DNA of 64,000 bases, taken from the NCBI RefSeq assembly GCF_013403245.1, contig NZ_JACBNQ010000009.1, positions 1-64,000 on the forward strand, given 5' to 3'. How positions within the stretch are numbered: position 1 is the first letter of the stretch; each line of letters opens with the position of its first letter. Under the pieces are notes generated by a model. It did no database searches, had not been told where the DNA came from, and saw only the letters and a program-made list of their open reading frames with translations. Positions 27,721 to 36,606 of this stretch are shown here, in pieces. This stretch comes from Sedimentibacter hydroxybenzoicus DSM 7310 (GTDB taxonomy: Bacteria > Bacillota > Clostridia > Tissierellales > Sedimentibacteraceae). Both the position numbers and the translations under genes were made by a program.

Positions 27721-28164
27721 TCAATAATTAAGAACTTCTTTGAAATCAATATCATACCTTGTGCCGTGACTAAAAAGAACTGCGTCTGTCAATCTGATAC
27801 GTAGAATAATTGTATTAGGGTTATTTTCATCTGTATGGCCATTGTAATACCATGCTGAAAATACTTTTCTCAGTTTCGTGGCAATTTCTGTGTTTGAATC
27901 ATCACAAATATATCCTATGTTTTCACCAACACCATGAGCAGTAAACCATTCACCGCATATTGCAACTGTAGAATTTACTTCTATTTGCTTAATCTTATTG
28001 GAGAGTGCATGCGTGATTGTATAAAATGCCCCATTTTCATAGTAACTGTTTATAATGCGTACAGCAGGAATATTACCGTCAGTAGTAGCGAGTGAAATGA
28101 GTGTATCATGTCCGAATCGTTCATTCATAACTTCAAGTGATTTGGTAAGCTTAGCTTTGTCCAT
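27721..28164 (-). CDS. Pyridoxamine-5'-phosphate-oxidase-like flavin-binding protein
   Basis: A 147-residue split-barrel protein: LISLATTDGNIPAVRIINSY at the N-terminus, GAFYTITHALSNKIKQIEVN for FMN-phosphate contact, STVAICGEWFTAHGVGENIG and the C-terminal TDAVLFSHGTRYDIDF. It belongs to the general PNPOx-like/FMN-binding group rather than true PdxH. Some clostridial relatives (Nim-like) reduce nitro compounds; that is only a possibility. ATG 28164 has a GAAAGGA site upstream. Confidence 0.8.
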   Translation of the reverse strand: MDKAKLTKSLEVMNERFGHDTLISLATTDGNIPAVRIINSYYENGAFYTITHALSNKIKQIEVNSTVAICGEWFTAHGVGENIGYICDDSNTEIATKLRKVFSAWYYNGHTDENNPNTIILRIRLTDAVLFSHGTRYDIDFKEVLNY

Positions 28165-34562: not shown

Positions 34563-34826
34563 TTATCTTCTTAATCCTAATCTTGCAACAATACTTCTGT
34601 ATCTTTCGATGTCGTTATTTTTTAAGTAGTTAAGAAATCCTCTTCTTTGACCAACCATTTGTAAAAGACCTCTTCTTGAGTGATGATCTTTTTTGTTGTC
34701 TTTTAAGTGTTCAGTCAGATTGTTGATTCTGAAAGTCAACATAGCTATCTGAACTTCCGGAGATCCTGTGTCCTTTTCATTGATTCTGTATTGTTCGATA
34801 ATTTGTGTTTTTTGTTCTTTTGTCAT
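34563..34826 (-). CDS. rpsO: 30S ribosomal protein S15
   Basis: S15 of 87 residues, normal length. The family pattern is complete: [40 protein letters not shown], and [19 protein letters not shown]. It binds 16S rRNA early in small-subunit assembly. GGAGG precedes ATG 34826. A leader of about 80 bases with an 8-bp stem may serve autoregulation. It is transcribed from its own promoter and followed by a strong terminator before pnp. Confidence 0.97.
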
Positions 34827-34962: not shown

Positions 34963-35715
34963 TTAATGTGCTCTGTCTAAAAAAATTATATCTTCATCTC
35001 GTTCTAATTTATCAAAAATCAAAATCGAGTTATCTTTATTTGTATTGATGGTTAACAAAGCTTCCTTTCCACCTGTCATGACCTTATATCTTCCGTCGGG
35101 AGGAATTATGATACTTGAATTATTATCTGCAAAAGCAATCTTTTTATTATAATCTATATTCAGCTCATTATTATAAATAGTGTAATTGTTAATTAAAAGC
35201 TTGTTAACCTCTAATATCTTCCCTTCATTTAATAAGTTTCTCACCAACGTAGAACTTACGGCAATGCCGTTATACTTAACAGGAAATATTTCTTCAACCT
35301 TGTAATTATATGTACTTTCGAATTCTCTTAATGTATTTATATTTCCGCTTGCCTTGTGTCCGAAGGTAAAATTATAGCCAACCACAATATTTTTAGCATT
35401 GTATTTGTCTATAAGAATTTCCTTTATAAACTGTTCGGGAGAATATTTTGATATGACTTCATCAAGCTCAATCTCTGCAACTTCAGTAACATTATATGAT
35501 TTTAACAGCTCCAGTTTAATGTTCCTGCTGTTTATGTATTTAATATTATATGTGGATTTTTTTAAATCCCTTCTTACAAACCTGAATGTTATAATTATGC
35601 TGTCTTGATTTTCTTCATTGCTTAACTCAATCATTCTTCTGATCAGTGCATCATGTCCAATATGTATACCATCAAAATTACCAATGGCAATACAAGAGGG
35701 TTTTCTGTTATTCAT
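34963..35715 (-). CDS. RibF-like FAD synthetase lacking the riboflavin kinase domain
   Basis: A 250-residue protein from ATG 35715. The N-terminal FAD synthetase (FMN adenylyltransferase) domain is intact: AIGNFDGIHIGHDALIRRMI with the nucleotidyl-transfer HxGH motif, VVGYNFTFGHKASGN, and VSSTLVRNLLNEGKI. In normal RibF (about 300 residues) a flavokinase domain with a GRxLGFPTAN motif follows. Here about 75 unrelated residues replace it (IPPDGRYKVMTGGKEALLTI). So FMN production would need another kinase. Position after truB is the normal ribF position. Confidence 0.85.
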   Translation of the reverse strand: MNNRKPSCIAIGNFDGIHIGHDALIRRMIELSNEENQDSIIITFRFVRRDLKKSTYNIKYINSRNIKLELLKSYNVTEVAEIELDEVISKYSPEQFIKEILIDKYNAKNIVVGYNFTFGHKASGNINTLREFESTYNYKVEEIFPVKYNGIAVSSTLVRNLLNEGKILEVNKLLINNYTIYNNELNIDYNKKIAFADNNSSIIIPPDGRYKVMTGGKEALLTINTNKDNSILIFDKLERDEDIIFLDRAH

Positions 35716-35730
35716 TAGTTCCACCTGTGT

Positions 35731-36606
35731 CTATACCAACATTTTTTCTATTTTTACCAAGTTGTTATTTATTTTTTTGCCGATTCCGATAAGCTCATCA
35801 TTACAATATATATAGAATACCTCATCTTCAATTGTATCAGCTTGTGCATATACTTCATTGCCTGCTGTAAGCCTGTCGTAATAATCCATATGAACATTTA
35901 TTTTTTTTAACGGATAAACTTTATCAATAGGTATCAGACATTCTTGCAGTCTGTTATTATCATATAAAAATTTAAGTTCATTTAGGGTTACGGAATTTTC
36001 AATATGTAAACCTTTTGTTTCTGTCCTTACTAATACACCCATATGTCCCAATGCTCCCAATTTTTCGCCTATATCGTTACACAAGGTTCTCATGTAGGTT
36101 CCCTTGGAGCAATTGACCCTCATAAGTACTCTTTCATTATCGTATTTTATAAGATTGATATCTTTAATATGAATTTCCTTTGCTTCTTTTTCCACCGATA
36201 TATTTTGTCTCGCGTATTCATACAGTTTTTTACCGTTTAATTTAACTGCCGAATACGCCGGTGGAATCTGCTGCTGTCTGCCTTTAAAATCTTCTAAAGC
36301 ATTTAACAGTGTACGTTCACTAATACTCTTGAACTTTTTTTCTTCCACAATCTTTCCATAGCTGTCCTGAGTATCGGTTTTTTGCCCTAAAATCAATTCG
36401 CAAACATACTCCTTGTCTTGATTCATGAGATACTCACTTATTTTAGTTCCTTTGCCTACGCATACAACCATGACTCCGGAAACATTGGGATCTAATGTAC
36501 CGGCATGCCCAACCTTTTTTATATTCAATATTTTTCTTACTGAACTGACAACATCGTGAGAAGTCATTCCGGTTGGTTTTAATATGTTCAATACTCCATT
36601 CATCAT
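35731..36606 (-). CDS. truB: tRNA pseudouridine(55) synthase
   Basis: TruB of 291 residues, making pseudouridine 55 in tRNA. Catalytic Asp lies in KKVGHAGTLDPNVSGVMVVC (GTLDP), followed by KEYVCELILGQKTDTQDSYG, PPAYSAVKLNGKKLYEYAR, and the RMNCSKGTYMRTLCNDIGEKLG-type segment with the conserved GTYMRTL. A C-terminal PUA-like tail ends the protein. The start overlaps the nrnA stop, so translation is coupled. ribF follows 16 bp downstream. Confidence 0.95.
   Translation of the reverse strand: MMNGVLNILKPTGMTSHDVVSSVRKILNIKKVGHAGTLDPNVSGVMVVCVGKGTKISEYLMNQDKEYVCELILGQKTDTQDSYGKIVEEKKFKSISERTLLNALEDFKGRQQQIPPAYSAVKLNGKKLYEYARQNISVEKEAKEIHIKDINLIKYDNERVLMRVNCSKGTYMRTLCNDIGEKLGALGHMGVLVRTETKGLHIENSVTLNELKFLYDNNRLQECLIPIDKVYPLKKINVHMDYYDRLTAGNEVYAQADTIEDEVFYIYCNDELIGIGKKINNNLVKIEKMLV

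Follow-up and report, generated by a model that had tools for sequence, protein, structure and literature searches.

FAD synthesis needs FMN, and the phosphorylation of riboflavin is, to our knowledge, close to universal. The RibF protein of Listeria monocytogenes, lmo0728, has reportedly been described as the first bacterial FAD synthetase to be monofunctional. A class of enzymes termed FADS-type II was defined by Yruela et al. 2010 (PMC2972280) as having an FMN adenylyltransferase (FMNAT) module and a shorter C-terminal module without PTAN. In that paper, type II is the sole FADS type of three genomes, Eubacterium saphenum, Mycoplasma conjunctivae and Treponema pallidum, and another activity is suggested for the C-terminal modules. 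Table 1 of PMC2972280 enters Listeria EGD-e as type I + FMNAT and HCC23 as type I + type II. In the accessible part of a study of L. monocytogenes (PMC12892937), lmo0728 is described as adenylating FMN and RibC (lmo1329) as carrying out both steps. RibU brings in riboflavin, FMN and FAD alike, and exogenous FMN/FAD sustains mutants that lack both flavin enzymes (PMC12892937).

A bacterial RibF of the build reported here is thus already described as FADS-type II, and the missing kinase is the interesting part. As in FADS-type II of PMC2972280, the FMNAT module is kept and the C-terminal module is shortened and lacks PTAN; here, however, this state is clade-wide, in genomes as large as 4.2 Mb, and riboflavin synthesis is encoded in some of them. 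The plant plastid proteins AtRibF1/2 have the same shortened C-terminal module without PTAN, and no kinase activity was detected in them according to PMC2972280. Unlike the present protein, they are plastidic and of cyanobacterial origin in the tree of PMC2972280, and plants have a separate kinase, FHy/RFK. Lmo0728, which may be of type II, is alike in its described role from FMN to FAD, but Listeria also has the bifunctional RibC.

The window, that is, the whole stretch of 64,000 nucleotides analysed, carries ribF on the minus strand in a run of genes with truB and rpsO on either side (domain names from Pfam). We take the run to be rimP-nusA-L7Ae-infB-rbfA-DHH-truB-ribF-rpsO-pnp. The features are as follows.

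34563 to 34826, minus strand: rpsO (Ribosomal_S15), downstream neighbour of ribF
34963 to 35724, minus strand: ribF, FADS-type II-like FMN adenylyltransferase (frame and Pfam)
34966 to 35184, minus strand: reduced C-terminal module, residues 181-253, predicted small six-stranded barrel without kinase active-site motifs (alignment, models, dN/dS)
35086 to 35103, minus strand: PxxGxY, residues 208-213, with P208, G211 and Y213 kept throughout
35110 to 35148, minus strand: loop, residues 193-205, at the place of GxxxGFPTANI of intact RibF (alignment)
35239 to 35256, minus strand: SSTLVR (SSTxxR) motif, residues 157-162, with S157, S158 and R162 invariant in 30 RibFs
35248 to 35709, minus strand: FMN adenylyltransferase module (FAD_syn, PF06574), residues 6-159 (Pfam E 9e-40; matches to CaFADS and TmFADS)
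35653 to 35664, minus strand: HIGH (HxGH) nucleotide-binding motif, residues 21-24, with H21, G23 and H24 invariant in 30 RibFs
35731 to 36606, minus strand: truB, upstream neighbour of ribF

The longest ribF frame runs from GTG 35724 to the stop at 34963 and encodes 253 aa. The ATG at 35715, preceded by AGGTGG and used in the earlier note on this DNA, is probably the start and gives 250 aa. Below, G000 denotes the window's own genome, f1 its family and f3 a second family with short RibF. As judged by eye, truB-like and rpsO-like ORFs also adjoin the short ribF of G025, G026, G045 and G028. Elsewhere in the window, 27721-28164 (minus strand) weakly matches PNPOx_N (E 6e-5, short of the cut-off) and may encode a protein that binds FMN.

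The earlier note had described a RibF with an intact FAD synthetase half and a C-terminus without the GFPTAN motif, and both observations were borne out. The FAD_syn domain has the HxGH and SSTxxR motifs of the FMNAT module of FADS-type II, and H21, G23, H24, G116, F121, S157, S158 and R162 are invariant over 30 aligned RibFs (25 short and 5 intact). In CaFADS, H28, H31, S164 and T165 are important by mutagenesis (PMC2573891), and H28/H31 are equivalent to the HxGH of the window RibF. The NCBIfam models NF045965 (residues 7-241) and PRK07143 (5-241) match the protein below their cut-offs.

At 250-253 aa the window RibF is shorter than its intact relatives (300-329 aa). From residue 181 on it has 73 residues, compared with 71-83 over 29 short RibFs, which come from 24 genus genomes, two further genera of the family and the second family; in the 25th genus genome, G006, ribF is split over two contigs. 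A frameshift or assembly error as the cause of the short C-terminus is ruled out, being incompatible with its occurrence in 29 RibFs. Pfam gave no Flavokinase (PF01687) match in the window RibF at E ≤ 1, and no PTAN-like motif is present, while the intact kinase domains of the order have PTAN, ATAN, RTAN or PTVN. The variant forms are ATAN in G035, G042 and G055, RTAN in G038 and PTVN in G044 (loci L099, L110, L114, L115 and L116); these RibFs are of intact length and their kinase domains are full length.

Ten intact RibFs of the order share 23 invariant residues in the kinase module, including PTAN, a Glu and Gly-x-Tyr. Across 19 short C-terminal modules invariance is limited to P, G, Y and one F, and the first three (P208, G211 and Y213) are all that every one of them keeps of the intact set. 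As aligned with intact RibFs, the short modules are gapped at PTAN, the catalytic Glu and the terminal helix. The gaps cover the positions of T208, N210 and E268, critical kinase residues of CaFADS (PMC2573891), which fall in the PTAN and Glu of intact RibFs. The protein thus lacks the PF01687 domain with PTAN and catalytic Glu of FADS-type I, and has the shortened, PTAN-less C-terminal module of FADS-type II. Compared with bifunctional RibF (C. ammoniagenes 2x0k, T. maritima 1mrz), it has the same predicted whole-length fold and synthetase motifs, but is shorter and is missing PTAN, the catalytic Glu and the C-terminal helix.

In the AlphaFold2 model of the full-length protein (mean pLDDT 89.7), six strands of at least 3 residues are predicted from residue 181 on. 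The model has the whole-length RibF fold: it aligned with CaFADS 3zug_A with Z 25.4 over 243 residues (rmsd 2.3), spanning model residues 4-253 and chain residues 11-292, i.e. without the last 46 residues of CaFADS. The alignment used for this model included five intact RibFs. As a control, the C-terminal module was modelled alone from 19 short sequences with no intact kinase domain (mean pLDDT 91.1). The top eight structure matches of this second model were all FADS (Z 6.2-6.9, 68-71 residues, rmsd 2.0-2.8). Nevertheless, these Z scores are under 8, and the adenovirus fibre head came next with Z 6.2, a tie with unrelated barrels. A Foldseek search with the module alone gave no match at E ≤ 0.001 and ranked F- and V/A-ATPase barrels alongside FADS. 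Aligned by hhalign with intact kinase domains, the module matched at the GxY stretch only (probability 4%), and its profile found only 4nzk (E 0.095) and 1x60 (E 1.4) in the PDB.

Because both models resemble the kinase barrel, the position is the same and PxxGxY is retained, the C-terminal barrel is likely, short of proof, to be a reduced riboflavin-kinase module. The structure prediction proposed in the earlier note thus returned a six-stranded barrel with FADS as its top matches, at scores that leave the relationship short of secure. The note had spoken of a replaced C-terminus; the predicted fold is instead that of a kinase barrel reduced in size, and replacement is probably not what occurred. 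An unrelated new C-terminal domain is not favored given the resemblance of both models to the kinase barrel, though sequence methods find no relation.

The C-terminal module is under purifying selection, as judged from the sequences, and is diverging faster than the synthetase half. Mean pairwise identity in f1 (26 sequences, 325 pairs) is 0.713 for the FMNAT part and 0.514 for the C-terminal module. For 28 intact RibFs of the order (378 pairs; a set without the intact copies of G047, G051 and G059, the second copy of G034, and those of G028 and G058), the values are 0.427 and 0.468. Among 16 close pairs (FMNAT dS 0.05-1.2, out of 120 pairs of 16 sequences), dN/dS was 0.05-0.24 in the C-terminal module and 0.02-0.20 in the FMNAT part, the former being higher in 14. 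Taken together, the identities and dN/dS suggest that the constraint of the kinase is gone and that the module is still selected.

A tree was built from the FMNAT part of 62 sequences (LG+G4+I). In it, a branch supported at 91.1/100 separates the 29 short RibFs (26 of f1 and three of f3) from the rest. Support for f1 alone is 77/95 and for the three f3 sequences 99.9/100. The f3 genomes G028 and G058 have an additional intact RibF, which is encoded on a different contig and sits on a long branch of the tree. The tree indicates a single loss of the kinase, in an ancestor shared by the short RibFs of both families.

On this evidence, ribF of the window probably encodes a monofunctional FMN adenylyltransferase of FADS-type II, whose kinase was lost once, whose barrel was kept and whose FMN comes from elsewhere. 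The protein would make FAD from FMN and ATP and would not phosphorylate riboflavin. The kinase active site would have gone from the common ancestor of the short RibFs with PTAN, the Glu and the C-terminal helix, and selection would have kept the remaining small barrel, probably as structural support of the synthetase half. The scaffold idea arises because CaFADS reduced to its synthetase half showed no activity in crude extracts (PMC2573891). The FMN of the window organism would be imported through a riboswitch-controlled ECF S component (RibU-like), made by a non-homologous riboflavin kinase, or both.

The source of FMN was examined through known kinase families. The earlier note had offered a separate riboflavin kinase, FMN uptake or an unrecognised kinase in the C-terminus as alternatives, and its suggested search for a second ribF or an archaeal-type kinase found none in the window's own genome. 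There were no PF01687 matches in that genome, and a separate homologous kinase is excluded as far as the assembly is complete (98.9%). PF01687 is present in 35 of the 61 genomes searched and absent from 26, all of which have a short RibF (split in G006). Within the genus it occurs in 2 of 25 genomes, in three frames of 154-238 aa (one in G017, two in G024), which are too short for both RibF halves; a domain scan did not find FAD_syn in either G024 frame. Together with G028 and G058, four clade members carry an intact kinase domain. The archaeal CTP-dependent RibK (PF01982) had no match in the window's own genome at E ≤ 1 and none over cut-off in 25 genomes, with weak matches in eight (E 0.017-0.56). 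For the family f1, 25 of the 27 genomes searched had no known enzyme for the FMN step. One of the G024 frames (L076:2409-3116, minus strand) fuses PF01687 (residues 8-128) to a winged-helix Trans_reg_C domain (152-227), and just upstream lies a 94-aa membrane-protein-like ORF that is RibU-like by eye only.

Papers on a riboflavin kinase missing from this group were also sought. None was recognised among open-licence papers seen in part, which is weak evidence of absence. The available portions of PMC4418817 (riboflavin transporters) and PMC12934955 (riboflavin degradation in Lachnospiraceae) have no bearing on the missing kinase.

PF01687 was found in 261 of 293 genomes of the class that are at least 95% complete. 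Of the 32 without it, 20 were listed, one being G000, and the other 19 were tested: 16 also lack FAD_syn, three have it and none has ribH (lumazine synthase). The 16 genomes without FAD_syn measure 0.8-4.2 Mb and are at least 97% complete; these organisms may import FAD or use unknown enzymes. In the other three, the FAD_syn protein has 177-181 aa and no C-terminal module (L093, L094 and L095, beside a truB-like ORF). The barrel is therefore not always needed, and a scaffold role would not be general. Among the genomes tested, FAD_syn kept, kinase lost and ribH present occur together only in f1.

A life on imported FMN/FAD through a RibU-type importer, with no riboflavin kinase at all, is the alternative that survives best, though we regard it as rather unlikely. 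FMN import by the window organism itself is possible, since ribH was not found in its genome and an FMN riboswitch lies ahead of an ECF importer; to this extent the uptake option of the earlier note stands. It is the only FMN riboswitch of G000, and the gene that it precedes encodes an ECF S component (PF12822, E 1e-36) that no NCBIfam model named at 1e-10. Of the 25 genus genomes, 22 have FMN riboswitches, and many loci show an MFS gene after the one for the ECF S component (by eye; scanned in G000). Listeria, with its uptake of FMN and FAD via RibU and its viable flavin-enzyme mutants, offers a precedent (PMC12892937), and the class survey points the same way: 16 of 19 other kinase-less members are without FAD_syn and all 19 without ribH. 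Divergent S components that look RibU-like by eye adjoin FMN riboswitches at L070 (G016), L073 (G002) and L065 (G005); such a locus is the second one in G002 and G016, and only one was found in G005.

Life on imported flavins alone is, however, hard to reconcile with relatives that make riboflavin, which would be useless for their own flavins without a kinase. Ten of 25 genus genomes have ribH, eight of them without PF01687; G026, of another genus, likewise combines ribH with a lack of PF01687, and G025 and G045 have neither. Nine genomes in all thus encode ribH but no known-family kinase. In eight of them, regions of 7-19 kb with the rib genes were read, and the ninth, G007, is covered via search loci only. 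As one example, G021 has an operon ribD-ribE-ribAB-ribH behind an FMN riboswitch, with all four genes over NCBIfam cut-offs. RibD, ribAB and ribH are clustered in all eight regions and ribE in seven; in G018 a longer antisense frame in the ORF filter covers the stretch where ribE would lie. The operons look complete or nearly so, and these relatives seem to need a non-homologous riboflavin kinase. The intact kinase domains of G017, G024, G028 and G058 likewise suggest a need. Chorismate synthase requires reduced FMN, and 12 of the 14 kinase-less genomes tested encode it, G000 among them (G002 and G015 do not).

No kinase-like gene was recognised by eye near the rib operons among ORFs common to at least two loci (first 60 residues). 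A HAD-type gene lies 3' of ribH in five of the eight regions; it is ruled out as a universal kinase, as G014, G021 and G026 do not have it at that place. HAD-type hydrolases follow ribH in six genomes (L086:1934-2572, L087, L088, L089, L090 and L092; the L086 copy was scanned) and are candidates for the phosphatase of riboflavin synthesis, a step that is poorly assigned.

The ribH-bearing relatives also count against the preferred reading of a monofunctional adenylyltransferase, leaving room for the C-terminal module itself as their kinase. On such an account the reduced module would still phosphorylate riboflavin with a rebuilt active site, in which the loop NKNxGFVDNKSSI stands in for GFPTAN. 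In favor of this, G000 has no further known-family kinase, purifying selection acts on the module, and the loop is well conserved in the genus (K194 in 24 of 24 sequences; N201, S203 and S204 in 22 of 24 each). But G025 and G026 retain the loop residues only in part and G045 does not retain them, all three genomes being without PF01687, and the module has no Glu at the expected place. Moreover, with 20 of the 23 invariants of intact domains not preserved across the short modules, the sequences disfavor the unrecognised kinase that the earlier note had allowed for. An additional, intact kinase domain is present in two genomes of the genus and two of f3, and the likely Listeria counterpart, lmo0728, is described only as adenylating in the available part of PMC12892937. 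We consider a C-terminal kinase improbable.

Least probable of all is a known-family kinase that was present but missed through incomplete assemblies or extreme divergence. Most genomes are drafts, and two weak matches came up when PF01687 was searched at E ≤ 10 in seven genomes (E 0.34 in G000, 0.63 in G014). But both span only part of the profile, and the G000 match (L097) lies in a 123-aa ORF that looks by eye like a GntR-type regulator. Completeness reaches 90% or more in 14 kinase-less genomes, G021 and G025 are each assembled into one contig and G013 into two, and the same search detected the domain across the class and the stand-alone domains of G017 and G024.

The reading of ribF as a monofunctional FMN adenylyltransferase is accordingly retained, and with it, more tentatively, the idea that the clade uses a third riboflavin kinase unrelated to PF01687 and PF01982, which we rate somewhat short of an even chance. 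If true, this would explain how RibF could lose its kinase site in the common ancestor while riboflavin synthesis was kept or regained in several members. The family keeps the FAD step, in most of its searched genomes without a known enzyme for the FMN step, which points to either an undiscovered kinase or a dependence on imported FMN, and the question of where FMN comes from presses most in the nine relatives that encode ribH.
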